In this document: piece after piece, positions 2,249-29,761 of the stretch
Layout of the letters: the number at the start of each line of letters is the position of its first letter
How positions within the stretch are numbered: the first letter of the stretch is position 1
Assembly (NCBI RefSeq): GCF_012844455.2
Contig: NZ_JABBCQ020000006.1
Location: 1 to 64,000, forward strand
Origin: Comamonas suwonensis
GTDB lineage: Bacteria; Pseudomonadota; Gammaproteobacteria; Burkholderiales; Burkholderiaceae_C
Length of the DNA: 64,000 bases
Direction: 5' to 3'
Position numbers and translations under genes: made by a program
Notes under the pieces: generated by a model
Database searches by the model: none
What the model saw: only the letters and a program-made list of their open reading frames with translations
Told to the model about the DNA's origin: nothing

Positions 2249-3352
2249 TTAGATGCGGTGATGCACTTGATCGGAGCCGCCGCGCAGCTTGATCAGCAGG
2301 GCTTGCGCAATTTGCGGCAGGGGCAGCACCTCGTCAGCCGCGCCACGGGCAATCGCTTCGCGCGGCATACCGAAGACGATGCAGGTGGCTTCGTCTTGCA
2401 CGAGGTTGTAGCTGCCTGCGTCACGCATCTCGCGCATGGCGGCTGCACCATCGGCCCCCATGCCTGTGAGCATGATTCCGTAGGCGTTACGACCCGCATT
2501 GGCCGCCACAGACTTGAACAGTACCTCGACGGAGGGCTTGTGGCGGTTCACCGGCGGCGCATCATCGACCACGGCCACATAGTTGGCACCGCTGCGGCTG
2601 ATAGAGAAATGCTTGCCACCGGGGGCGATATAGGCGTGGCCGGGCAGCAAGCGTTCGCCATGGGTCGCTTCCTTCACCGTCATCTGGCACAGACTGTTAA
2701 GCCGCGCCGCAAAGCTGGTGGTGAAGCCCGGCGGCATATGCTGGGTGATGACGATGGCCGGGCAATCGGCAGGCAAATGGGTCAGCACTTCACGAATCGC
2801 TTCTGTGCCGCCCGTGGATGCGCCAATGGCAATGATTTTCTCGGTGGAAACTCTCCCCAGCAGCGTGGGTACGGCTGACAGGCGGGCCACAGCAGGTTTG
2901 GCACCCGCAGCCACACCATGTGGTGCCACCGGCAGGCGATGCACCTGAGCGACCGCCGCCACACGAATCTTGTCCACGATCTGCGTGGCAAGCTCCTGCA
3001 AACCATTGGCCACCCCCACACGGGGCTTGGCCACAAAGTCAATGGCTCCCAGCTCCAGTGCACGCATGGTGACTTCAGCGCCGCGCTCGGTCAGCGTGGA
3101 GATCATCACCACCGGCATGGGGCGCAGGCGCATGAGACGCCCCAGAAAGTCAATGCCATCCATACGGGGCATTTCCACATCCAGCGTGATGACATCGGGA
3201 TTCAGTTCACGGATCATCTCGCGCGCGATCAGCGGATCATTGGCCGATCCAATGCATTCCATATCGTGCTGACGGTTGATGATCTCGGCCAACAAACTGC
3301 GCACCAGCGCAGAGTCGTCCACCACGATCACCCTGATTTTTGGCTTTAGCAA
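2249..3352 (-). CDS. cheB: Chemotaxis methylesterase/deamidase CheB
   Basis: CheB removes methyl groups from chemoreceptor glutamates after phosphorylation by CheA, giving adaptation. The receiver domain (about 1-125) has the acidic pair in VVDDS and phosphoacceptor Asp58 (ITLD58VEMP). The catalytic domain (about 170-355) shows the Ser-His-Asp triad: Ser179 in AIGAST, His205 in ITQHMPPG and Asp301 in GMGADG. The 367-residue length is normal. It is the last gene of the che operon, 13 bases after cheD, and ends at the hairpin shared with uup. Confidence 0.95.
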
Positions 3353-3365
3353 AGCTCAACCTTCC

Positions 3366-4100
3366 TCAAAACAGATCCACCGAGCCACCCGCCGTGTTGC
3401 GCGCAACGACAGCGGCGCTGCCACGGCTGATTTCCTGCTGCACCAGCGCTTCAGGATGGGCATGGGCCAGTCGTTTGACCATGGCCTTGCCGGTGGATGG
3501 AAAAAAGACCACTTTGCGCGGGTAAATATCCAGCACGTCCTCAGAGACGATAGGAATGCGCTCGGTCTGCAAATACTTTGTCACAAAATCTGTGTTGCGT
3601 TCACCCACATTCATGGTCGTGAAGTTGGCCATGACCTGAGCGCCGCCGAAAACCTTGGCCTGCATGGACTCGCGCCGTGCGCCCATCTTCAGCATCTCGT
3701 TGATCAGCAACTCCATGGCGTAAGAGCCATAACGGCCCGAGACATCTCGGCTGTCACCCTCGGGCAACATGAAGTGATTCATGCCGCCAATGCGCATGAA
3801 TCGGTCCCACAAACAGGCTGCAATGCAGGAACCCAGCACGGTGACGATGGCCATCTCGTCGCGCGAGACAAAATATTCGCCCGGCAGCACCTTGGCGGAA
3901 TTGAGCTGAAAGTGCGGGTCGTAATAAAAGAACGAGGCTTCACCCGGCTGGCGTGGCCTACGCTTGAGCTGCTCCAGCGATGACACCGGCGCTGTTGCTG
4001 CTGGCTCAGAATAGGGCTGCCCCATATAGGCAGGACTGCGCAAAGACCGGCCTGCGGCGCCAGCACCCGGCATATCCGGCGGAGAGCTCAGATTCCTCAT
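3366..4100 (-). CDS. cheD: Chemoreceptor glutamine deamidase CheD
   Basis: CheD deamidates receptor glutamines and in some bacteria interacts with CheC-type phosphatases. The catalytic Cys92 lies in VTVLGSC92IAACLWD and the His109 in GGMNH109FMLP. The motif KVFGGAQVM is also conserved. The N-terminal ~50 residues are a low-complexity extension. The protein ends in GGSVDLF, a tail nearly identical to that of the CheZ-like protein at 8254-8703 of the same operon, which is unexplained. It sits between cheR and cheB. Confidence 0.93.
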   Translation of the reverse strand: MRNLSSPPDMPGAGAAGRSLRSPAYMGQPYSEPAATAPVSSLEQLKRRPRQPGEASFFYYDPHFQLNSAKVLPGEYFVSRDEMAIVTVLGSCIAACLWDRFMRIGGMNHFMLPEGDSRDVSGRYGSYAMELLINEMLKMGARRESMQAKVFGGAQVMANFTTMNVGERNTDFVTKYLQTERIPIVSEDVLDIYPRKVVFFPSTGKAMVKRLAHAHPEALVQQEISRGSAAVVARNTAGGSVDLF

Positions 4101-4124
4101 GATTGGCGACCCTGCCCTTCAGAC

Positions 4125-5039
4125 TCATTGACGCTCATAAACGGTCTTCCCCTTGAGAGCGAACAGATCTCGCGCGTCGCTGAAATTCTCGGCATGGCCC
4201 ACAAACAGCAGCCCGCCGGGTTTCAGCACCTGATGGATACGCTCCAGCACACGGCGCTGAGTCGGCGCATCAAAGTAAATCATCACGTTACGGCAAAAGA
4301 CCACGTCGAATGTCTCGCGAAACGGCCAGTCGCCCGCAATCAGGTTGACGTTGATGAAATCCACCATCTGACGCAGCTCGGGCTTGATGCGAACCATGCC
4401 TGAGTTGCCGGAGCGCCCACGCAAAAAGAAACGGTGCAGCCGCTCGGTGCTGACGCCCTTGACGCTTTCAGCCCGGTACACGCCACGCGATGCCGTCTCC
4501 AGCACGCGGGAATCAATGTCGCTGGCCGTCAGCTGAAAGCTGGTCGATGCACCCAGACTCTCCACCGCCGTCATCAGAATGGAATAAGGCTCCTCGCCCG
4601 TCGATGCCGCGCTGCACCACACCTTCCAGCCATTGCCACCCGGCTTATGGCTACGCAGGTGCTGGGACAGAATTTCAAAATGGTGCTGCTCGCGAAAGAA
4701 CGCCGTCAGATTGGTGGTGAGCGCATTGACGAACTCCTGCCACTCCGGCCCATCGTTAATCGACTCCAGCCAGTCCAGATAGCTGGCAAAGCTCTCATGT
4801 CCTGTCTCGCGCAAGCGACGGGACAGACGGCTGTAGACCATGGCGTGCTTGCCATCATGCAGACTGATGCCGGCATGTTTATAGATCAGTGTCTGAACGC
4901 GGGAAAAGTCACGGTTAGACCAGACAAACTCGCGCCCCTGAGTCAGCGGGCCAGACAAATGGTCTGGCGACGCATCGTCATCCTGCACCAGATGGGCAGG
5001 AGCTTTGTTGGATGAAGCGCTACGCCCCAGATTCAGCAC
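4125..5039 (-). CDS. cheR: Chemotaxis protein methyltransferase CheR
   Basis: CheR uses S-adenosylmethionine to methylate chemoreceptor glutamates. The N-terminal helical domain (about 35-100, IYKHAGISLHDGKHAMVYSRL) and the SAM-binding domain (KVWCSAASTGEEPYSI and FDVVFCRNVMIYF) are clear. The 304 residues include an N-terminal extension of about 35 residues beyond the minimal enzyme. It lies between cheW and cheD in the che operon, with short gaps on both sides. Confidence 0.95.
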   Translation of the reverse strand: MLNLGRSASSNKAPAHLVQDDDASPDHLSGPLTQGREFVWSNRDFSRVQTLIYKHAGISLHDGKHAMVYSRLSRRLRETGHESFASYLDWLESINDGPEWQEFVNALTTNLTAFFREQHHFEILSQHLRSHKPGGNGWKVWCSAASTGEEPYSILMTAVESLGASTSFQLTASDIDSRVLETASRGVYRAESVKGVSTERLHRFFLRGRSGNSGMVRIKPELRQMVDFINVNLIAGDWPFRETFDVVFCRNVMIYFDAPTQRRVLERIHQVLKPGGLLFVGHAENFSDARDLFALKGKTVYERQ

Positions 5040-5056
5040 ACAGGCCTCTGGATCGC

Positions 5057-5545
5057 TCAGGCTTCAGAGGCCACCAGGCCCATGTCGACATTGCCCATGA
5101 GCTTTTCAATGTCCAGCAAGATGAGCATGCGTTCGCCCACCGAACCCAGGCCCAGAATGCAGCCACTGTCGATGGCGCTTTCGATATCGGGTGCGGGGCG
5201 CACGGCATCCGCGGCCAGCTCCATCACATCGCTGACCGAGTCCACCACAATGCCCACCACGCGGCGACCCAGATTCAGAATGATGACCACGGTGAAAGCG
5301 TTGTACTCCACTTCAGAGCAGTTGAAGCGCAGGCGCATGTCCACGATAGGCACGATGGTGCCGCGCAGATTGACCACGCCCTTGATGAATTCGGGCGCAT
5401 TGGCAATGCGTGTGGGCGGCTCGTAGCCACGGATTTCCTGCACCTTCAGAATATCGATGCCGTACTCCTCAGCACCCAGGCGGAAGGTCAGATATTCGCG
5501 TGAGCCCGTGGTCAGGCCTTCGGCAGTCTTGTTGAGGATGTTCAT
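5057..5545 (-). CDS. cheW: Chemotaxis coupling protein CheW
   Basis: CheW is the adaptor that joins chemoreceptors to CheA in the signalling array. The protein is a single CheW domain of 162 residues, with the usual order YLTFRLGAEEYGIDILKVQEI, then NLRGTIVPIVDMR, then VVGIVVDSVSDV and ILLDIEKL. Its gene follows cheA by about 70 bases in the operon. Confidence 0.96.
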   Translation of the reverse strand: MNILNKTAEGLTTGSREYLTFRLGAEEYGIDILKVQEIRGYEPPTRIANAPEFIKGVVNLRGTIVPIVDMRLRFNCSEVEYNAFTVVIILNLGRRVVGIVVDSVSDVMELAADAVRPAPDIESAIDSGCILGLGSVGERMLILLDIEKLMGNVDMGLVASEA

Positions 5546-5614: not shown

Positions 5615-7816
5615 TCAATGGCGGGTTCGGCGCACCAGAGCGCCGGTATCCAGAATCAGTGCCACGGATCCATCACCCAGAATGGTGGCGCCCGAGACAT
5701 TGGGCACCTTGCGGTAATTGCTCTCCAGGTTCTTCACCACCACTTGGTGCTGCCCCAGCAGCTCGTCCACCAGCAGGGCGACACGGCTGCCGTCGGCTTC
5801 GACCACCACCATGATGTTGCTGGTCTCGTTCTCATCGGCGCGCGGCACCTGGAAGGTTCGCTCCAGCGCAATCACAGGCATGTATTCATCACGCACCTTG
5901 ACCAGCTGCGTACCGTTGGCCACGGTGTTCACATCATCGCCCTTGACCTGGAAGGACTCCACCACAGAGGACAGGGGGAGGATGTAAACCTCCTCGCCCA
6001 CACCGACCGACATGCCATCCATGATGGCCAGTGTCAGCGGCAGGCGCACCGAAACCTTCATGCCCTGACCGGCGACGGAGTCAATCTCCACCGTTCCGCC
6101 CAGCGAGCTGATGTTTCGCTTGACCACATCCATGCCCACGCCTCGGCCCGACACATCGGTCACCACATCTGCGGTAGAAAAGCCTGGCGCAAAAATCAGC
6201 ATCCAGACTTCGCTGTCAGGCATGCTGTCAGAGACATCCATGCCGCGCTCGCGCGCCTTGCTCAGAATCTTCTCGCGGCTCATGCCCTTGCCGTCGTCAC
6301 GCACCTCAATGACGATGGAGCCTCCCTGATGCGAGGCTGCCAGCGTCAGCGTGCCGTTTTCAGACTTGCCAGCCGCCAGTCGCTCCTCCGGCATTTCAAT
6401 GCCGTGGTCCACGCTGTTGCGCACCAGATGGGTCAGCGGGTCAGTGATCTTTTCGACCAGGCCCTTGTCCAGCTCGGTGGCTTCGCCCAGTGTGATGAAG
6501 TCCACCTTCTTGCCCAGCTTGCCCGCCAGATCACGCAACATGCGCGGGAAGCGACTGAACACGGTGGACATGGGAATCATGCGGATCGACATCACGGACT
6601 CCTGCAAATCCCGCGTGTTGCGATCCAGATCGGCCAGCCCCGCCAGCAGTTGTTGATAAGCCGTAGGGTCCAGACCCTGGCTGTTCTGCGCCAGCATGGC
6701 CTGTGTAATCACCAGCTCGCCGACCAGATTGATGAGCTGGTCCACCTTCTTCACATCCACGCGGATGCTGGTGGACTCCATATGCGCAGCGGCCGCCTTG
6801 GGTGCAGCCTTTTGTGCCCCTGCCGCAGCTGGGTCTTGCGCTGAACGCTCTTGATTCAATAGCGCATCAGGGCTGCCAGGTGCTCCGGCAAAAAAGCCAT
6901 AGGCTTCCTCTGCCGACAGGTGGACGGAAGGCGTAGCCTGCTCATCATCCCCGGCCACAATCGCGTCAGGCTCAGCTACCGCAGCCTCAACCTCAGAGAC
7001 AGGGACTACGAGCTGTTGTGTCAGCTCCTTGATCTGCACCTGCTCTTTGGAGACGTGGAAAACGAACAGATCACGCAATTCGTCATCGGTAGAAACGGTT
7101 CTGACCTCAAACAGGCGGTAATCCGGCTTGCTGCTGACCTGATCCTGAATCGTGCCCAGACCAGGAATATCGCGGAACAGCTCCTTGATGGCATCGCCCA
7201 GCTCCAGCTTGGGCAGTGGGCCAATGTCGATGTGCAGCACGCGTGCACCTTCGGGTGGCTCCGTGCCGATCACGACGCCGGGCGCTGCGACCTGAGCGGG
7301 AACAGAAACTGGCACAGGCGCTACAACAACAGGAGCTGCTTGCGTTTTATCAGCAACGGCTGCAGCACGATTAACCTGTGGAATCTCCGTCAAACCCTGG
7401 GCCAGTGCTTCAATGCGCACCACCAGTTCGGCAGTGGATATCGGCTCGCCCTCATCACCCGACTGGTGACGTGCCAGCAGGCTGCGGCTGGCGTCTGCAG
7501 ACTCCAGCAGTACATCCACCATGGCGGGAATAGGCGTGATTTCATGGCGACGCAGGCGGTCCAGCAAGGACTCCATGCGGTGCGTCAGCTCGGTCACGTC
7601 TGAGAAGCCAAAGGTTGCCGCCCCCCCCTTGATGGAGTGGGCGCAGCGAAAAATGCCGTTGAGTTCTTCGTCATCGGCGGCCGACAAATCCAGGCTGAGC
7701 AGCATCTGCTCCATCTGGTCGAGGTTCTCGCTGGCCTCCTCGAAAAAGATTTGATAGAACTGGCTAAGGTCAAAGTCCGCGCCCGAACCTGTGCCATCCT
7801 GGTGTGTATCCGCCAT
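5615..7816 (-). CDS. cheA: Chemotaxis histidine kinase CheA
   Basis: CheA autophosphorylates and donates phosphate to CheY and CheB. Domain order is: P1 Hpt with phosphorylated His60 (CAH60SIKGGAATFGF); a proline- and alanine-rich linker; a P2-like region around 190-270; P3 dimerisation helices (IRVDVKKVDQLINLVGELV); the P4 ATPase with N-box HLVRNSVDHGIEMP and G-box VRDDGKGMS; and a CheW-like P5. The 733 residues are slightly longer than the E. coli protein. A sigma-28-like promoter overlaps the end of the upstream cheY-like gene, so cheA-W-R-D-B may be transcribed separately as well as by read-through. Confidence 0.96.
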   Translation of the reverse strand: MADTHQDGTGSGADFDLSQFYQIFFEEASENLDQMEQMLLSLDLSAADDEELNGIFRCAHSIKGGAATFGFSDVTELTHRMESLLDRLRRHEITPIPAMVDVLLESADASRSLLARHQSGDEGEPISTAELVVRIEALAQGLTEIPQVNRAAAVADKTQAAPVVVAPVPVSVPAQVAAPGVVIGTEPPEGARVLHIDIGPLPKLELGDAIKELFRDIPGLGTIQDQVSSKPDYRLFEVRTVSTDDELRDLFVFHVSKEQVQIKELTQQLVVPVSEVEAAVAEPDAIVAGDDEQATPSVHLSAEEAYGFFAGAPGSPDALLNQERSAQDPAAAGAQKAAPKAAAAHMESTSIRVDVKKVDQLINLVGELVITQAMLAQNSQGLDPTAYQQLLAGLADLDRNTRDLQESVMSIRMIPMSTVFSRFPRMLRDLAGKLGKKVDFITLGEATELDKGLVEKITDPLTHLVRNSVDHGIEMPEERLAAGKSENGTLTLAASHQGGSIVIEVRDDGKGMSREKILSKARERGMDVSDSMPDSEVWMLIFAPGFSTADVVTDVSGRGVGMDVVKRNISSLGGTVEIDSVAGQGMKVSVRLPLTLAIMDGMSVGVGEEVYILPLSSVVESFQVKGDDVNTVANGTQLVKVRDEYMPVIALERTFQVPRADENETSNIMVVVEADGSRVALLVDELLGQHQVVVKNLESNYRKVPNVSGATILGDGSVALILDTGALVRRTRH

Positions 7817-7840: not shown

Positions 7841-7867
7841 TTATCGGCTTAACGGAGGACTTTCTGA
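7841..7867 (-). promoter_or_regulatory. Sigma-28-like promoter before cheA
   Basis: On the minus strand, TCAG (7867-7864) is followed by 15 bases and an exact GCCGATAA (7848-7841), 25 bases upstream of the cheA start. The -10 element is perfect but the -35 is only partial compared with TAAA. It overlaps the stop codon of the cheY-like gene. Confidence 0.5.
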
Positions 7868-8211
7868 ATGACTTCAATCAAACGATTGGGGTCAAAAGGC
7901 TTAACCAGCCAGCCCGTAGCCCCTGCAGCACGGCCTGCCTGCTTCATCAAATCGCTGGATTCCGTCGTCAAAATCAAGATGGGCGTGCCCTTGAACTTGG
8001 GGTCTTCACGCAGCTTGCGGGTGAGGCCAATGCCGTCAAGGCGCGGCATGTTCTGGTCGGCCAGCACCAAATCTATGCTTTCTGCCTGGGCTTTTTCCAG
8101 CGCATCTACACCGTCGACGGCCTCCACCACCTTAAAGCCAGCACTGCTCAATGTGAAAGAAACCATCTTTCGCATCGAGGGGGAATCATCAACAGCCAGA
8201 ATCGATCGCAT
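7849..8211 (-). CDS. CheY-like single-domain response regulator (che operon copy)
   Basis: This is a stand-alone receiver domain of 120 residues. The acidic pocket lies in AVDDSPSMRK, the phosphoacceptor is Asp52 (LVLAD52QNMP), and the conserved Thr and Lys are in ILTTESS and WLVKPFD. I chose the start at MRSILAVDD, not the ORF's first methionine four codons upstream, because it gives the standard N-terminus. It resembles the CheY copies found in cheA-adjacent operons more than the E. coli-like CheY at 23523-23909. It may be the motor-binding regulator, or a phosphate sink that buffers the other CheY. The neighbouring CheZ-like protein suggests a dedicated pair. Confidence 0.9.
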   Translation of the reverse strand: MRSILAVDDSPSMRKMVSFTLSSAGFKVVEAVDGVDALEKAQAESIDLVLADQNMPRLDGIGLTRKLREDPKFKGTPILILTTESSDLMKQAGRAAGATGWLVKPFDPNRLIEVIQKVLR

Positions 8212-8253
8212 GTACAGCTCCAACAGACGGGCAACAGTAAACAGGGTAGAAGG

Positions 8254-8703
8254 TCAAAACAGCTCTACAGAGCCGGCATCCATCTCGCTTTGCGTGACGG
8301 GGTTGGGTTTCTCGGGCAGGCTCGGCAGGCAGACGTCTGTTTCTGCCTCGTCCTCATCCGTACCCATGGCAGCAGCCCCCAGCCTGAAAGCGCAGGCTTG
8401 CAAGGTATGCGCCATGTGAGCAATCAATTGTGAAGACATATCGTGGAACTGCAGCTCGGTGACGGCCAGGCGCAGCGCCTCACGCGCCGAGTCCAGTCCT
8501 GCCGTATTCAGCAGAGCAGGGTGAGACAATTGGCCGTTGGCCTGCTCAAAGCGCTCAAGCAAATTATGCGTGGCATGGTCCAGCAGCCCCTCAAGCCGCT
8601 GCAAGTCACGCAGCGTGACCAGCAAGGCATCTTGCAGCTCCGCAGCCACCATCACCGGCACGGCAACCGCAGGCACACCCGATGGGTTTTGCATTGTCTG
8701 CAT
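8254..8703 (-). CDS. Small CheZ-like protein with DxxxQ phosphatase motif
   Basis: This 149-residue protein is the first gene of the che operon, and the start has GGAG six bases upstream. It is mostly helical. The segment TELQFHD88MSSQ92LIAHM matches the catalytic helix of CheZ; the true CheZ in this window has AQDFHD130LTGQ134VIARV. The Asp and Gln of the CheY-P phosphatase motif DxxxQ are both kept. The N-terminal half has no other recognisable domain. The C-terminus ends AGSVELF, similar to the CheD tail GGSVDLF and unlike the CheY-binding tail of CheZ. A CheY-P phosphatase role, probably on the adjacent CheY-like protein, is inferred and not proven. Confidence 0.6.
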   Translation of the reverse strand: MQTMQNPSGVPAVAVPVMVAAELQDALLVTLRDLQRLEGLLDHATHNLLERFEQANGQLSHPALLNTAGLDSAREALRLAVTELQFHDMSSQLIAHMAHTLQACAFRLGAAAMGTDEDEAETDVCLPSLPEKPNPVTQSEMDAGSVELF

Positions 8704-8819
8704 CGTTACTCCAACTGCGAAAAACCTTCATGACGACCACGCCGCCATGCACCACGAAATAAACAGATCAGAAGCCCTTGCCGCCGCTGGTCAGTCCTGA
8801 CCTGACGACTATTGCTCCA

Positions 8820-9941
8820 ATGTTCCAAAATGTATCCAATGATAGCGTTCTTGGCGATGTGCAATTACAGGATCAGCACGTGAAAATCCTCCATATTGAA
8901 GACTCTGTCGCAGATCAGGCCCTGGCGCGGCTGAGTCTCAAGCGCGGACCGCTGTCCTGCACCCTCACGGCGGTAGACACTCTGCCCGCTATCGAAGACG
9001 CTTTGCAGAAACAGACGTTCGACCTGATTCTGGCGGACTACTACCTGCCCGGCTTCACGGCGCTGGATGTCTGGGAACTGGTTCGCACCCGCGCCGACGC
9101 CCCGCCATTTGTGCTGCTGTCGGGTGCCATTGGCGAATCGGCGGCGGTGGATATCATGCGACTGGGCATCAGCGACTACCTGCTCAAAGACCAGATCAGC
9201 AGCCTGCCCCATGTCATCCAGCGCGCGATGGAAGTGCACGAAGCCCGGCTGGCACGCCGCCGTGCCATGCAGGAGCTGGCCCAATCCGAAAAGCGCCTGG
9301 CCGAACTGACCGAGCACCTGCACACCAGCATTGAGCAAGAGCGGGCCAATATCTCGCGCGAGATTCATGACGATATTGGTGGCTCGCTCACCGCCGTCAA
9401 GTTCGATCTGGCATGGATGAGCCGCAACAGCCCTGAAGGCGCGCTGCGCGAGCACGCCCAGTCGGCACTGGCAATGCTGGAGCACGCACTGGGTGCCAGC
9501 CAGCGCATCATGCAGAACCTGCGTCCGCCAGTGCTTGACCAAGGGCTGGTCGCAGCCGTGCAATGGTTGACTCAGGACTTTGAGCGTCGCACCGGCATCC
9601 CCGCCCAGCTGCACACCAGCCGCGAGCACATGGAGATAGCCCCCGCTCAGCAGGTCGCCGTGTACCGCACGGCGCAAGAATCGTTGACCAATATCAGCAA
9701 ATACGCACAAGCCAGCCGTGTGACGCTGGATTTATCCGATCACGAAGGTTTTTTGACACTGGAAGTAACAGATAACGGGGTAGGCTTGGCCCCAGAAGCC
9801 CGTGAAAAGACCCAATCCTTCGGGCTTCGTGGGTTAAGTGAGCGCGCACGAACAGTCAACGGATGGCTGGATGTGAGTAGCCACCCCGGTCGAGGAACCT
9901 CTATCATCCTCACCATTCCTCTGACTGATACCGACACATGA
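8820..9941 (+). CDS. Soluble REC-histidine kinase (NarX/UhpB-type transmitter)
   Basis: No transmembrane segment is visible, so this kinase is predicted to be cytoplasmic. Counting from the ATG at 8820, an N-terminal receiver domain has acidic residues in HIEDS and phosphoacceptor Asp73 (LILAD73YYLPGF). A coiled linker follows. Then come a HisKA_3 dimerisation/phosphoacceptor region with His183 (REIH183DDIGGSL) and an HATPase domain with VTDNGVGL and FGLRGLSERA. The start is uncertain: TTG 8778, ATG 8820 and GTG 8880 (preceded by AGGA) are all possible. It is divergent from the che operon and 55 bases upstream of its likely partner regulator. The receiver domain could accept phosphate from CheA, but this is speculation. 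Confidence 0.85.
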   Translation: MFQNVSNDSVLGDVQLQDQHVKILHIEDSVADQALARLSLKRGPLSCTLTAVDTLPAIEDALQKQTFDLILADYYLPGFTALDVWELVRTRADAPPFVLLSGAIGESAAVDIMRLGISDYLLKDQISSLPHVIQRAMEVHEARLARRRAMQELAQSEKRLAELTEHLHTSIEQERANISREIHDDIGGSLTAVKFDLAWMSRNSPEGALREHAQSALAMLEHALGASQRIMQNLRPPVLDQGLVAAVQWLTQDFERRTGIPAQLHTSREHMEIAPAQQVAVYRTAQESLTNISKYAQASRVTLDLSDHEGFLTLEVTDNGVGLAPEAREKTQSFGLRGLSERARTVNGWLDVSSHPGRGTSIILTIPLTDTDT

Positions 9942-9996
9942 GCAACGCACTATGGCTAGTTGAGCCTTGGCGAGCTGTTTACCTGGGAGGTGTACC

Positions 9997-10626
9997 TTGA
10001 TTCACGTCGTGCTATGCGATGACCATGCCATTTTGCGACGAGGCATACGCGACACCCTGGCCGAGGCCACGGACATCATCGTCACCGCCGAAGCAGGCTG
10101 CTACGCCGAACTGCGCGAGCAACTGCGCACTGCTACCTGCGATGTGCTGCTGCTGGACATCAACATGCCCGGTCGCAGTGGTCTGGAAGTGCTGGCCAGC
10201 GTGCGCGAAACCCACCCGCACATCCACGTCATCATGGTCTCTATGTACCCCGAGGATCAGTACGCCCTGCGCAGCATCAAGGCCGGCGCGGCGGGCTATG
10301 CCAACAAGGCGGGCGACCCGGTGCAGCTGATCGAAGCCGTGCGTATCGTGCAAAGCGGCCGCAAGTACCTAACCCCCGAAGTGGCCCAGATGCTGGCCGA
10401 AAGCTTGGCACAGCCCGTTGCCCCCGTGCCCCACGAAACCCTGTCCGAGCGTGAAATGCAGACTTTGCTGAAGATTGCCAGCGGGCAGAAGCAGACGGAT
10501 ATTGCGCAGGAGCTGATGCTGAGCCCCAAGACGGTGAGTGTTTATCGGGCCCGAGTGCTGGAGAAGCTGGGGATGAGTAGCAACGCCGAGTTGACGGCTT
10601 ACGCGATCCACAACAAGCTGATCTAG
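9997..10626 (+). CDS. NarL/LuxR-family response regulator
   Basis: The receiver domain (HVVLCDDHAILRRGI, phosphoacceptor in DVLLLDINMPGRSG, Lys in GYANKAG) is followed by a LuxR-type helix-turn-helix (LSEREMQTLLKIASGQKQ, then LSPKTVSVYRARVLEKL). I place the start at TTG 9997 because GGGAGG lies six bases upstream and the protein then begins directly with the receiver strand. A longer ORF opens at 9967. It is the probable output partner of the REC-histidine kinase immediately upstream. Targets are unknown; flagellar or chemotaxis genes are an obvious guess from position only. Confidence 0.92.
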   Translation: MIHVVLCDDHAILRRGIRDTLAEATDIIVTAEAGCYAELREQLRTATCDVLLLDINMPGRSGLEVLASVRETHPHIHVIMVSMYPEDQYALRSIKAGAAGYANKAGDPVQLIEAVRIVQSGRKYLTPEVAQMLAESLAQPVAPVPHETLSEREMQTLLKIASGQKQTDIAQELMLSPKTVSVYRARVLEKLGMSSNAELTAYAIHNKLI

Positions 10627-22861: not shown

Positions 22862-22905
22862 CTAGTGCTTATGTATCAAGCGCAGGCAGCTATTCTTTTT
22901 AAAAA
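22859..22905 (-). repeat. Dispersed repeat family A, copy at the cheZ 3' end
   Basis: On the minus strand it reads AATAGCTGCCTGCGCTTGAT followed by ACATAAGCACTAGAGCC, nearly the same as the 10641-10687 copy. It overlaps the cheZ stop codon and abuts the cheZ terminator. Confidence 0.7.
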
Positions 22906-23519
22906 CCCAGACTCGCCAGCAGATCATCCACCTGCGTTTGCGATGTCACCACATCCACCGTGTTTTCCGGATCCACCACAGGACCGGCGAGCTTGGGCTG
23001 CGCGGCTTCGACAGGCGCCAGAGCTGGTGCCTGCGCGGCTTCGGGCGAGGTCTGAATCAGCAGCTCCAGCAGCTGCGATTCCAGATCTGCCGCCAATGAC
23101 ACCACGCGGGCAATGACCTGGCCGGTCAGGTCGTGAAAGTCCTGCGCCATCATGATTTCGGTCAGGTGGCTGCCCGTCTGCTGCGTGCTTTCTTCCACAT
23201 CCTGCAGATAGTTCATCACGCCGCCCTTGGCCACAGCGGCCACGGGGTCCTTGATGAGTTCTGCGCGCATGGAGCCGGTGCGCTCGGCCAGCGAATCCTG
23301 CTGGCTCTGCATCACCTCGACCTGGCCCAGCACCTTGTCCGCCGCCTCACCCGTCAGGCGGGCGATATAGGACAGGCGGCTTTGCGCATCGGGCAACTCA
23401 CCCATGCTGCCGCGCAAGCGATCCGCATAGCCCAGCTCATTGAGAGAGTTATGCAACTGGCGTGTGAGCACGCCAATCTTGTAATGGACGTTGACAGAAG
23501 CCCCGGGGTCGCTGCTCAT
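22899..23519 (-). CDS. cheZ: CheY-P phosphatase CheZ
   Basis: CheZ dephosphorylates CheY-P. The catalytic helix reads MMAQDFHD130LTGQ134VIARV, with the Asp and Gln of the DxxxQ motif (Asp143 and Gln147 in E. coli). The C-terminal CheY-binding peptide TQVDDLLASLGF is perfect. The 206 residues match the family. It is four bases downstream of cheY and last in the motA-motB-cheY-cheZ unit. Confidence 0.97.
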   Translation of the reverse strand: MSSDPGASVNVHYKIGVLTRQLHNSLNELGYADRLRGSMGELPDAQSRLSYIARLTGEAADKVLGQVEVMQSQQDSLAERTGSMRAELIKDPVAAVAKGGVMNYLQDVEESTQQTGSHLTEIMMAQDFHDLTGQVIARVVSLAADLESQLLELLIQTSPEAAQAPALAPVEAAQPKLAGPVVDPENTVDVVTSQTQVDDLLASLGF

Positions 23520-23522
23520 GGC

Positions 23523-23909
23523 TTAGAGGTCGAGTTTCTTGATGATGAGGTTGACCTTCTCTTCCAGCGTGGCCTTGGTGAAGGGCTTGACGATATAGCC
23601 AGCCGCGCCGCCCTGTGCTGCAGCGACGATGTCTTCCTTGCGGGCCTCGGCCGTCACCATCAGCACAGGCAGATGCTTGAGCTTCTCGTCCTGCTTGATC
23701 TCGGTCAGCAACTGAAAGCCGTTCATGTTCGGCATGTTGATGTCGGTCACCACAAAATCAAACTTGCTGGCACGCAGCTTGTTGATGGCAACCATGCCAT
23801 CTTCGGCCTCATCGGCATCGGCAAAGCCACTCTCCTTGAGCAGGTTGCGCACGATACGGCGCATGGTGGAGAAGTCGTCAACAATCAAAAATCGCAGGGC
23901 ATTAGCCAC
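23523..23909 (-). CDS. cheY: Chemotaxis response regulator CheY
   Basis: This is the E. coli-type CheY of 128 residues: acidic pair in [13 protein letters not shown], phosphoacceptor Asp56 (FVVTD56INMPNMNG), Thr in VTAEA and Lys in YIVKPFT. It carries the motor switch signal to FliM. The start is GTG with AAAGGG a few bases upstream. Pairing with cheZ makes it the likely principal CheY. Confidence 0.96.
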
Positions 23910-26324: not shown

Positions 26325-27854
26325 ATGGCAATGACCATCAACACCAATATCCAGTCGCTCAACGCTCAGCGCAATCTGGGCACCTCGCAATCTTCGCTGT
26401 CCACCTCCATGCAGCGCCTGTCTTCGGGTCTGCGCATCAATAGCGCCAAGGATGATGCGGCTGGCCTGGCCATTGCCGAGCGCATGAGCGCTCAGGTTCG
26501 CGGCCTGAACCAGGCTCAGCGCAATGCCAATGACGGTGTTTCTTTGGCCCAGACGGCTGAAGGCGCACTGGGCACCATTGGTGGCAACCTGCAGCGTATT
26601 CGTGAGTTGGCTGTTCAGTCTCGCAATGCCACAAACTCTACGGAAGACCGAGCCGCACTGCAAAAAGAAGTAGCGCAGCTGACGAGCGAAATTGATCGTG
26701 TGGCCAGCACGACTTCTTTCAACGGCACTAAGCTGCTGGATGGCTCCTTCACCAGCCAAGCTTTTCAGGTGGGCGCCAATCAAGGCCAAACAATTGATAT
26801 CGCTTCGATTCAGAATTCGAGCGTTTCTCAGTTGGGTGACTGGAATAGCGTGGTTCAGGGTGCAAAGACCACAAGCGGCGCAGTACAGGCCGATGCGACA
26901 TCGACGCCCGTCACGACCACAGCTGCATTTGATTTTTCGGCGCTAGAGGCTGCCACAGGCTTTGCTGGCGGCGACGTCACCATCGGTGATAAGACAGTTA
27001 CCCTGAGCGCGATCCCTCTTGACGCCGCCAAGACGGCCCCATCTGATGATGCTGCGATGCAAAAAGCCATTGCAGACCAGATCTACAACGGCTTCAAAGA
27101 TCAACTGCCCGCCGGTGTTTCCATCGCCTACGATGGTGCTGGAAAAATAGATCTGACAAACGCCTCGTTGGACGACACAATCAAGATCGCTAAAACGGGT
27201 ACTGAAATCACTGCAGCTAATGCAACCGCAGCTGCTGGTACCGGCGCATTCTCCGCCTTGACGGGAGACAACTTCAAGATCAATGGCGTTGGAATTGAGG
27301 TCAAGGGTCAGTACAGCAGTGATCCTAATGCTCGTCGCCAGCAGCTGGTTGATGCAATCAATGGCTATACATCGCAAACCAATGTCACAGCTTCGGTTCA
27401 AGGCGACAAGGTGGTGCTGAATAGCAAGACTGGCGATATCAAGATTGAGACCGATAAGGTCGATCTTCTGGCAGCGAACGGTTTCAAGGCAGTTGATACT
27501 GCGGGCACTGTCGACGGTTACAAGGCTGCTGAAACTAAAAAAGGCTTTCAAGGCATTGATGTCTCGACCGTTGAAGGTTCTGACAACGCCATCCTGGCCA
27601 TGGACGCAGCACTGAAGTCGGTCAACTCCGCACGTGCTGACCTGGGTGCCATCCAGAACCGCTTTGAATCGGTAGTCTCCAATCTGAGCGTGAATAGCGA
27701 AAATCTCTCGGCTTCCAAGAGCCGTATCATGGACGCTGACTTTGCTTCGGAAACCGCCAATCTGAGCCGCTCGCAGATTCTGCAGCAGGCCGGTACGGCT
27801 ATGGTGGCCCAGGCCAATCAGCTGCCACAAGGCGTGCTGTCCCTGCTGCGCTAA
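26325..27854 (+). CDS. fliC: Flagellin, first copy
   Basis: This is the filament subunit. The N-terminal D0/D1 region ([38 protein letters not shown]) and the C-terminal region ([33 protein letters not shown]) are typical. The central domain (about 180-400) is variable and holds a flagellin-IN-like segment (NFKINGVGIEVKG). The length is 509 residues. AAGGAG precedes the ATG. It has its own sigma-28 promoter and terminator, so it is monocistronic. The second flagellin (28163-29761) shares the ends but not the centre. Confidence 0.96.
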   Translation: MAMTINTNIQSLNAQRNLGTSQSSLSTSMQRLSSGLRINSAKDDAAGLAIAERMSAQVRGLNQAQRNANDGVSLAQTAEGALGTIGGNLQRIRELAVQSRNATNSTEDRAALQKEVAQLTSEIDRVASTTSFNGTKLLDGSFTSQAFQVGANQGQTIDIASIQNSSVSQLGDWNSVVQGAKTTSGAVQADATSTPVTTTAAFDFSALEAATGFAGGDVTIGDKTVTLSAIPLDAAKTAPSDDAAMQKAIADQIYNGFKDQLPAGVSIAYDGAGKIDLTNASLDDTIKIAKTGTEITAANATAAAGTGAFSALTGDNFKINGVGIEVKGQYSSDPNARRQQLVDAINGYTSQTNVTASVQGDKVVLNSKTGDIKIETDKVDLLAANGFKAVDTAGTVDGYKAAETKKGFQGIDVSTVEGSDNAILAMDAALKSVNSARADLGAIQNRFESVVSNLSVNSENLSASKSRIMDADFASETANLSRSQILQQAGTAMVAQANQLPQGVLSLLR

Positions 27855-28162: not shown

Positions 28163-29761
28163 ATGGCAGCCATCATCAATACCAATATCCAGTCACTCAA
28201 TGCACAGCGCAGTCTGAGCTCATCCCAAAGTCAGCTGGCGACCTCCATGCAACGCCTGTCATCGGGCCTGCGCATCAATAGCGCCAAGGATGATGCCGCA
28301 GGCCTGGCCATTTCTGAGCGCATGACGACCCAGGTGCGCGGTTTGACCGTTGCGATGCGCAATGCCAACGATGGCATTTCGCTGGCGCAGACCGCTGAAG
28401 GTGCCTTGGGTTCGCTGGGTAACAACCTGCAGCGCATTCGAGAATTGGCGGTACAAGCCCGCAATGCGACAAATTCCCTGGAAGACCGTGCAGCGCTGGA
28501 TGCGGAAGTACAGCAGCTCAAAGCTGAAGTGACGCGCGTGGCACAGCAGACCAGCTTTAACGGGACCAAGCTGCTGGATGGATCCTTCACCAATATGGCA
28601 TTTCAGGTGGGCGCTAATCAGGGGCAGACCATCGATATTTCCGCAATTGTGAATGCCAATGTGGATACCCTGGGTAGTTGGGAGAGCGTGGCTGTTCCAT
28701 CAAAACTGACGGGTTCTGCAATTGCTGGCAGTAACGCAGTCGTGACCGTCCCTGCCAAAACCAGCTGGAACATTGCCGATCCGGCTGTAGATGGCTCCTA
28801 TGGCCCATCTACTCTGTCGATCAATGGCGGAACGGCCGTGAATGTCGCTGCAGTCACTGCGGTTGGAACACCGCCTGCGACCGCCGTTCAAATAGCGACT
28901 GCCAAAGACACTTTGGCAACGAATATTCAGACTGCGCTGAATGCAGCCGTTCCGAACGGGCTAGGTGCAGGTGCAGTTTCTGTGAGTGTGGTGAATGGCA
29001 AGATTGAGATCGTCAACAACACAACGAGCAGTGCGGTTGTCGCTCCGTCTGCCGGGTCCCCTCTCGGTAACACTACTCTGAGCGTGAACGCGGCAAAGAG
29101 TGTGACCTCGGGTGGCATGCCTGCAGCAAGCGTGCAAATCAATGGCGTGACACTGAATTTGCCTGCGCAGGAAAGCGCTAGCAATCGGATCAATGATTTG
29201 GTAACCCAAATCAATTCAGCAAGCACTACTCCTAAGGTGCAAGCATCCATTGTGAATGGCGCACTTTCACTAACGTCCGCATCCGGTGATGTGGTTGTCG
29301 GTTTACCCGCCCCACAAACGATCCCTGTTACCGATAACGACGTTATTGCTGCAGCGACGGGTTTGTCAGTAGGAACAACCAATGAGTCGAGCCCCCAGCG
29401 CGTCCCTGGAACTAGAGGCTTCGTAGGTGCTGAGGCTGACAAGAAAGGCTTTGCAGACCTTAATGTGCTGGATGCCGAATTTGCAGACAACGCAATTTTG
29501 GCCATGGACGCTGCACTGACTGCGGTCAATGGAGCCCGTGCCACACTGGGTGCGGTACAGAGCCGGTTTGAGACCACCGTCAGCAATCTAAGTGTCAATG
29601 CCGAAAACCTTTCCGCATCTCGCAGTCGCATCATGGATGCTGACTTTGCAGCTGAAACCGCCAATCTGAGCCGCACGCAGATCCTGCAACAGGCGGGAAC
29701 GGCCATGGTGGCTCAGGCGAATCAGCTGCCCCAGCAAGTGCTCAAGCTGCTCCAGGGTTAA
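28163..29761 (+). CDS. Flagellin, second copy
   Basis: This second flagellin of 532 residues has the same D0/D1 ends as fliC ([71 protein letters not shown]). The centre (about 180-440) differs, with two flagellin-IN-like segments ([11 protein letters not shown] and [11 protein letters not shown]). GGAG lies seven bases before the ATG. Unlike the first copy, no sigma-28 promoter is visible. It may form a minor or differently timed filament segment; a redundant copy is also possible. Confidence 0.94.

Follow-up and report, generated by a model that had tools for sequence, protein, structure and literature searches.

A small DxxxQ protein heading a Comamonas chemotaxis operon resembles the ends of McpA-like receptors and is a candidate CheY1-P phosphatase

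Results

A small gene heads the che operon

The window that we analysed, a 64,000-nucleotide stretch of Comamonas suwonensis DNA, carries a chemotaxis operon with the order small gene, cheY1, cheA, cheW, cheR, cheD, cheB (Table 1). A sequence-only reading of the window had placed a short CheZ-like gene at the head of this operon with cheY1 next to it, and the gene order bears this placement out. The 149-residue open reading frame is a real gene. The window is related to C. testosteroni, the protein being 90 percent identical in the closest named records among the best 80 of 230 loci, and residues D52 of CheY1 and D56 of CheY2 carry the same numbers as D52 and D56 of the C. testosteroni proteins. 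The small protein has no Pfam or NCBIfam name, its sole matches lying far below the cut-offs; a sequence search of the PDB gave no match (best E 0.2), and no match to the gene was found among plasmid records.

Table 1. Positions of the small gene, its parts and the chemotaxis genes in the window
Feature	Position	Strand	Basis
Small protein gene, 149 aa	8254..8703	-	ORF; match in 123/200 sampled family genomes
Helix 1, residues 17-59	8527..8655	-	AlphaFold2 DSSP; matched in 12/13 module-bearing receptors
Helix 2, residues 70-113, carries the DxxxQ motif	8365..8496	-	AlphaFold2 DSSP; matched in 13/13 receptors
D88-x-x-x-Q92 motif	8428..8442	-	Invariant in 95/95 and 111/111 sequences
C-terminal tail, residues 133-149	8257..8307	-	Most conserved stretch; matched in 13/13 receptors
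cheY1, proposed substrate	7849..8211	-	ORF, Response_reg; ATG start (ORF caller: TTG at 8223)
cheA	5615..7816	-	ORF; named by reading the sequence; 3' of cheY1 in 169/170 loci
cheW, cheR, cheD, cheB, rest of operon	2249..5545	-	ORFs; CheD by PF03975, others by reading
cheZ, canonical	22899..23519	-	PF04344, E 8.5e-60
cheY2, motor CheY	23523..23909	-	ORF

Divergently from the small gene, window positions 8778-10626 (plus strand) hold what, by reading of the sequence, are a receiver-histidine kinase gene and a gene for a NarL-type regulator. The kinase gene was present at that place in 50 of 60 loci by reading (49 by a script, in which one start was overextended), so that it may be part of the same control circuit as the small gene. 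Elsewhere on the plus strand, two tandem ORFs (26325-27854 and 28163-29761) read as flagellins. The accessible text of a 2019 review mentions an unpublished gene, CtCNB_4786, with low identity to CheZ (PMC6600141). This is probably not the small gene: we counted 18 genes between cheY2 (0455) and cheY1 (0474), so that the small gene would be CtCNB1_0473 if the tags run in order; CtCNB_4786 itself was looked for and not found.

According to the accessible text of work on C. testosteroni CNB-1, CheY2 is essential, deletion of CheY1 reduces chemotaxis partly, and CheY1-P, which decays fast in vitro, has been suggested to serve as a phosphate sink (PMC6391922). The literature that we searched, a body of text in which subscription papers are mostly outside coverage, yielded no description of this small protein or of an McpA phosphatase.

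The small gene is widespread, conserved and tied to cheY1

Among 200 sampled genomes of the family, we found the small gene in 123 (E up to 0.001), a CheZ match in 134 and FliM in 147. The small gene and CheZ occurred together in 117 genomes, the small gene only in 6, CheZ only in 17 and neither in 60; within the 147 genomes that contain FliM, 117 held the small gene.

Conservation was determined over 95 unique sequences (110 loci plus the window). Neither D88 nor Q92 varied in any of the 95, or in any of 111 sequences of a wider set, and the most conserved part of the protein was its tail, where residues 133-138, 140-141, 144-145 and 148-149 were identical in 95 of 95 (consensus NPVTQ-EMD-GS-[VI]-[ED]-LF). 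When more distant members were included, a 75-row alignment with a mean column identity of 36 percent retained L27, L48, Q85, F86, D88, Q92, Q138, G144 and F149 as invariant, with some selection for likeness built in, as the relatives were gathered by similarity to the query. Two loci (L170 and L171) carry an insertion of ~25 residues in the linker between hairpin and tail, both ends of the protein being conserved. A linker that tolerates insertions in this way is as expected of a tethered docking peptide, which the tail putatively is.

Across 170 family loci (30, 80 and 60 with longer flanks, a set that includes repeated and nearly identical genomes), the small gene and the start of cheY1 are at most 108 bases apart in every instance, counting two (L157 and L158) where BLAST missed the small gene and it was placed from the position of an earlier match. 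cheA then follows in 169 of the 170, the exception (L167) being a locus that ends before cheA. Outside the family, all eight stand-alone relatives lie by CheY1 and seven of them also by CheA. The order in two loci (L148 and L208) is cheY2, cheZ, small gene, cheY1, cheA, each CheY adjoining its own proposed phosphatase.

We then considered the six genomes that have the small gene but gave no match to CheZ (G018, G147, G188, G057, G045 and G142), in all of which the small gene, CheY1 and CheA stand together. The window CheZ, used as a direct query, found nothing convincing in these six genomes (one match at E 0.5). Their best CheY2 match had 35 to 39 percent identity in five and 86 percent in G142, and the FliM search gave no match in G018, G147, G188 and G057, assemblies that comprise 2 contigs (100 percent complete), 1 contig (99 percent), about 80 contigs (99 percent) and about 330 contigs (only 90 percent), respectively. 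The pair of small protein and CheY1 thus seems able to persist where CheZ, the motor CheY and the flagellar switch are lacking. Gene order, together with the genomes that keep only this pair, lends good support to the dedicated second pair that the sequence-only reading had proposed, as a pair of CheY and putative phosphatase.

The motif helix is in register with that of CheZ

AlphaFold2, supplied with 75 sequences, predicted two long helices (17-59 and 70-113) that form a hairpin, followed by a short one at 138-142, with a mean pLDDT of 81.6 and low values at both ends. D88 and Q92, four residues apart, both fall in predicted helix 2 rather than on different helices. Searching the PDB with Foldseek, we found nothing at E up to 0.001, and the best 50 of 240 matches did not include CheZ; as a helical hairpin resembles many proteins, this fold search was uninformative.

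An alignment of FHD88MSSQ92LI in the small protein with FHD130LTGQ134VI in the window CheZ had been put forward from the letters alone. Both segments are present, and profile comparison sets D88-Q92 exactly on D130-Q134, residues that are invariant in 35 CheZ sequences. Using hhalign, the 75 small proteins compared with the 35 CheZ sequences gave E 0.0041 with a probability of only 8 percent, and a score of 25.2 against 13.3, 14.7 and 18.7 for controls. With 36 further module sequences, none of which was dropped for want of the motif, these values became E 0.00047, probability 33 percent and score 28.2. None of 100 column-shuffled CheZ alignments reached this score (mean 12.4, maximum 20.6), while reversed CheZ scored 18.7 and control receptors 13.1 (reversed, 16.7); the reversed controls matter because column shuffling loses helix periodicity. 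The Pfam model PF04344 found no CheZ match in the small protein at E up to 1; of its 75 homologues, 3 matched with E no higher than 0.1, the best of them at 0.0022 and short of the Pfam cut-off. The small-protein HMM matched the CheZ of L208 (E 4.5e-5). The likeness of the DxxxQ helix to that of CheZ appears real but remote, and may reflect convergence.

We also compared the small-protein tail with that of CheZ and rejected their equivalence (P = 0.40 against the CheZ consensus and P = 0.15 against the window CheZ, 5000 shuffles each). The sequence-only reading had described the protein as lacking the CheY-binding tail of CheZ. In this respect it was mistaken, for a conserved C-terminal tail does exist, one that is not significantly like that of CheZ. 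The name CheZ-like is apt for the catalytic helix; the protein itself falls outside CheZ as Pfam and NCBIfam define it, and its closest relatives found, judging by sequence, are McpA-like receptors. What that reading had observed is partly confirmed, and its interpretation partly supported.

The same module lies at the ends of McpA-like receptors

Profile searches at the level of the order (250 genomes) and of the phylum (299 genomes) gave matches in 124 and 87, respectively, many of them weak, and revealed the module at the ends of larger proteins. Many of the weaker order-level matches cover the DxxxQ helix without the tail, and 15 of the 36 added proteins were neither stand-alone nor matched by the receptor tip pattern, one of these (L240) having an MCPsignal domain. 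The module is varied among its relatives.

We picked 75 receptor-like ORFs by pattern in the fetched loci, 13 with DxxxQ and 62 without. In the 13, the signalling core is bracketed by helix 1, helix 2 and the tail, in that order. At E below 0.01, helix 1 matched in 12 of them (the remaining one at 0.04) and helix 2 and the tail in all 13 (E 1e-3 to 7e-16 and 9e-4 to 2e-7, respectively), compared with none of the 62 control receptors without the motif (best 0.02, for helix 2); the helix 2 and tail matches are partly due to selection, the 13 having been fetched by profile, helix 1 is mostly outside this effect, and some of the 13 are closely related to each other. Of six proteins scanned with Pfam, four (L223, L212, L209 and L240) contain MCPsignal and two (L221 and L228) gave no match to it; no match to this domain was found in the 149-residue protein. 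Eleven of the 13 receptors lie upstream of a CheY1-like CheY (52 to 65 percent) and then CheA, with a gap of ~0.9 kb in the arrangement at L210; L214 and L233 differ.

Frames of 328-364 residues without the receptor tip pattern were also seen (L220-L222, L226, L227, L229, L230, L232 and L234-L239); at their C-terminal end they carry this DxxxQ helix together with a tail resembling NPVSQESMDEGDIDLF. cheB lies near all five of those tested, and L221 has no MCPsignal match. A 357-residue ORF near cheR-cheD-cheB at L289 (about 4019-5089), which contains MQFQDRATQ, is a possible DxxxQ carrier.

As far as the accessible text goes, McpA-like receptors (PA0180, VCA1088) have a strikingly conserved C-terminus with an important yet unclear role, that of P. 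aeruginosa McpA is without the CheR pentapeptide and shows no interaction with any of the four CheRs, and mcpA is lost in stage 3 F7 systems (PMC7184735). PA0180 heads the che2 cluster PA0180-PA0173, as given in the accessible portion of another report (PMC2714965). In make-up and place our 13 receptors match this published McpA-like F7 group, to which they probably belong, and the CheA-CheY beside the small gene is probably F7-type. From its sequence, the small protein looks like an McpA-like receptor without the core. In a CheY1 tree (36 CheY1 and one CheY2) there were three changes between the free and the receptor form, and none of 200 bootstrap trees had one change; the well supported branches force no more than one.

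CheT candidates do not align at the catalytic residues

The S. meliloti protein CheT, whose target CheY is reportedly CheY1, is encoded by a gene that presumably follows cheD, and we picked candidates on this basis. Seven of 15 cheD loci from other genomes had a DxxxQ ORF after cheD, and six of these were taken as CheT candidates; the ORF at L288 was left out, its motif being present and its end motif missing. All six read Q-x-x-D-x-x-x-Q, sharing with the small protein a Q three positions ahead of the Asp, and end in G-D-F-D-F-F, G-D-F-E-L-L or G-D-C-D-F-F, four being near relatives and the ends having been part of the selection. The tail pattern, chosen after the candidates had been seen, occurs in 67 of 4263 background ORFs. 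The candidates scored 17.5 against the small proteins (hhalign E 0.041, 1 of 60 decoys as high), 19.2 against the combined set (E 0.0085, 0 of 60 decoys) and 17.0 against CheZ (3 of 60 decoys as high), with the catalytic residues unaligned. A widened search matched in 3 of 190 genomes, one of which was the source of a query row and two of which were unconvincing. By analogy, CheT may be like the small protein in its working; it is not a demonstrated relative.

Discussion

We propose that the small protein acts on CheY1-P as a free-standing phosphatase module, composed of the helices and tail of an F7 McpA-like receptor without its signalling core, and give this reading a probability of roughly 0.6. 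What the analysis shows is conservation with an invariant D88 and Q92 on one predicted helix, a constant gene order with cheY1, the CheZ register of that helix, and a likeness of the module to the two receptor ends. Also in favour are the four genomes (G018, G147, G188 and G057) that keep the small gene with CheY1 and CheA where searches gave no CheZ, close CheY2 or FliM, the suggested sink role of C. testosteroni CheY1, and the example of S. meliloti CheT. D143 and Q147 of E. coli CheZ position water at the CheY-P active site. For the small protein we infer activity, substrate, tail docking and direction of evolution as follows. Its two helices would pair. Helix 2 presents D88 and Q92 one turn apart, and these would enter the active site of CheY1-P and position water as those two residues do, while the GSVELF tail would dock on CheY1. 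Faster emptying of CheY1-P would then strengthen the phosphate drain from CheA. As to origin, the receptor core would have been lost and the N-terminal and C-terminal helices kept together with the tail. One point against this proposal is that CheY1-P already decays fast in vitro, so a helper may be needless, as judged from the accessible text of that study (PMC6391922). The Pfam CheZ scores below cut-off, the low hhalign probabilities, the fold search, the tail that is not significantly CheZ-like and the CheT candidates that are not clearly homologous also weigh against it.

Ends shared with McpA-like receptors would also suit a receptor remnant that is not an enzyme, one that serves as an adaptor or localiser by binding CheY1 or CheA, or whose tail tethers CheR or CheB, and CheT is indeed described in the accessible text as binding CheR (PMC12654446). 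We consider this unlikely, given that the DxxxQ pair stays constant while several surrounding positions vary and that the P. aeruginosa McpA C-terminus is reported, in the text accessible, to have neither the CheR pentapeptide nor an interaction with CheR (PMC7184735). It is decidedly doubtful that the protein acts as a second phosphatase for motor CheY2-P, adding to CheZ. Such a role would fit the 117 of 123 carriers that also have a CheZ match and the two loci, L148 and L208, in which the small gene adjoins cheZ; however, five of the six CheZ-less carriers are without a close CheY2 (the sixth, G142, having one at 86 percent), and the constant neighbour of the small gene is cheY1. These same two loci, where cheY2-cheZ directly precedes the small gene and cheY1, would be expected of a CheZ paralogue descended from a duplicated and shortened cheZ, as would a DxxxQ helix in register with CheZ, but a likeness to McpA-like receptor ends far stronger than that to CheZ, and a tail that differs from the CheZ tail, make this origin highly improbable.

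If the small protein is a CheY1-P phosphatase module of receptor origin, it may represent a broader family of modules serving F7-type CheYs, some built into McpA-type receptors as their two ends and others occurring as free proteins. The McpA C-terminus would then be a phosphatase with its docking peptide, receptors would switch CheY off directly, and Comamonas and relatives would have lost the core and kept the enzyme. We offer this extension tentatively, at slightly worse than even odds. For a gene that stands first in the chemotaxis operon of many members of a large family, the proposal offers a probable role, and it turns the question of why the McpA C-terminus is conserved into one for a direct enzyme assay. 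If true, it would also call for a change to the published account in which later F7 systems simply lost mcpA, as the ends of the receptor may live on as a protein of their own.

Among known systems, CheZ (PF04344) shares with the small protein the mid-helix DxxxQ in exact register, the F two residues before the Asp and the possession of a conserved C-terminal peptide. It differs in length (206 residues versus 149), in the sequence of that peptide (VDDLLxSLGF in CheZ; the small-protein tail is not LLxSLGF) and in its neighbour, which for the small gene is cheY1 and not cheY2. CheC, CheX and FliY are likewise auxiliary CheY-P phosphatases, but their fold and motif differ from those of the small protein, whose model is all helix. 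CheT is, like the small protein, a small DxxxQ protein of a che operon in a two-CheY system, whereas its gene stands after cheD and the small gene before cheY. In the accessible text, CheT has a DXXXQ motif and a predicted CheZ-like structure without significant sequence homology to CheZ, and enhances dephosphorylation of one of the two CheYs (PMC12654446). McpA-like F7 receptors of the PA0180 type share helix 1, the DxxxQ helix and the Gx[VI][ED]LF tail with the small protein and occupy the same place upstream of cheY-cheA, but contain the MCPsignal core that is absent from the small protein.
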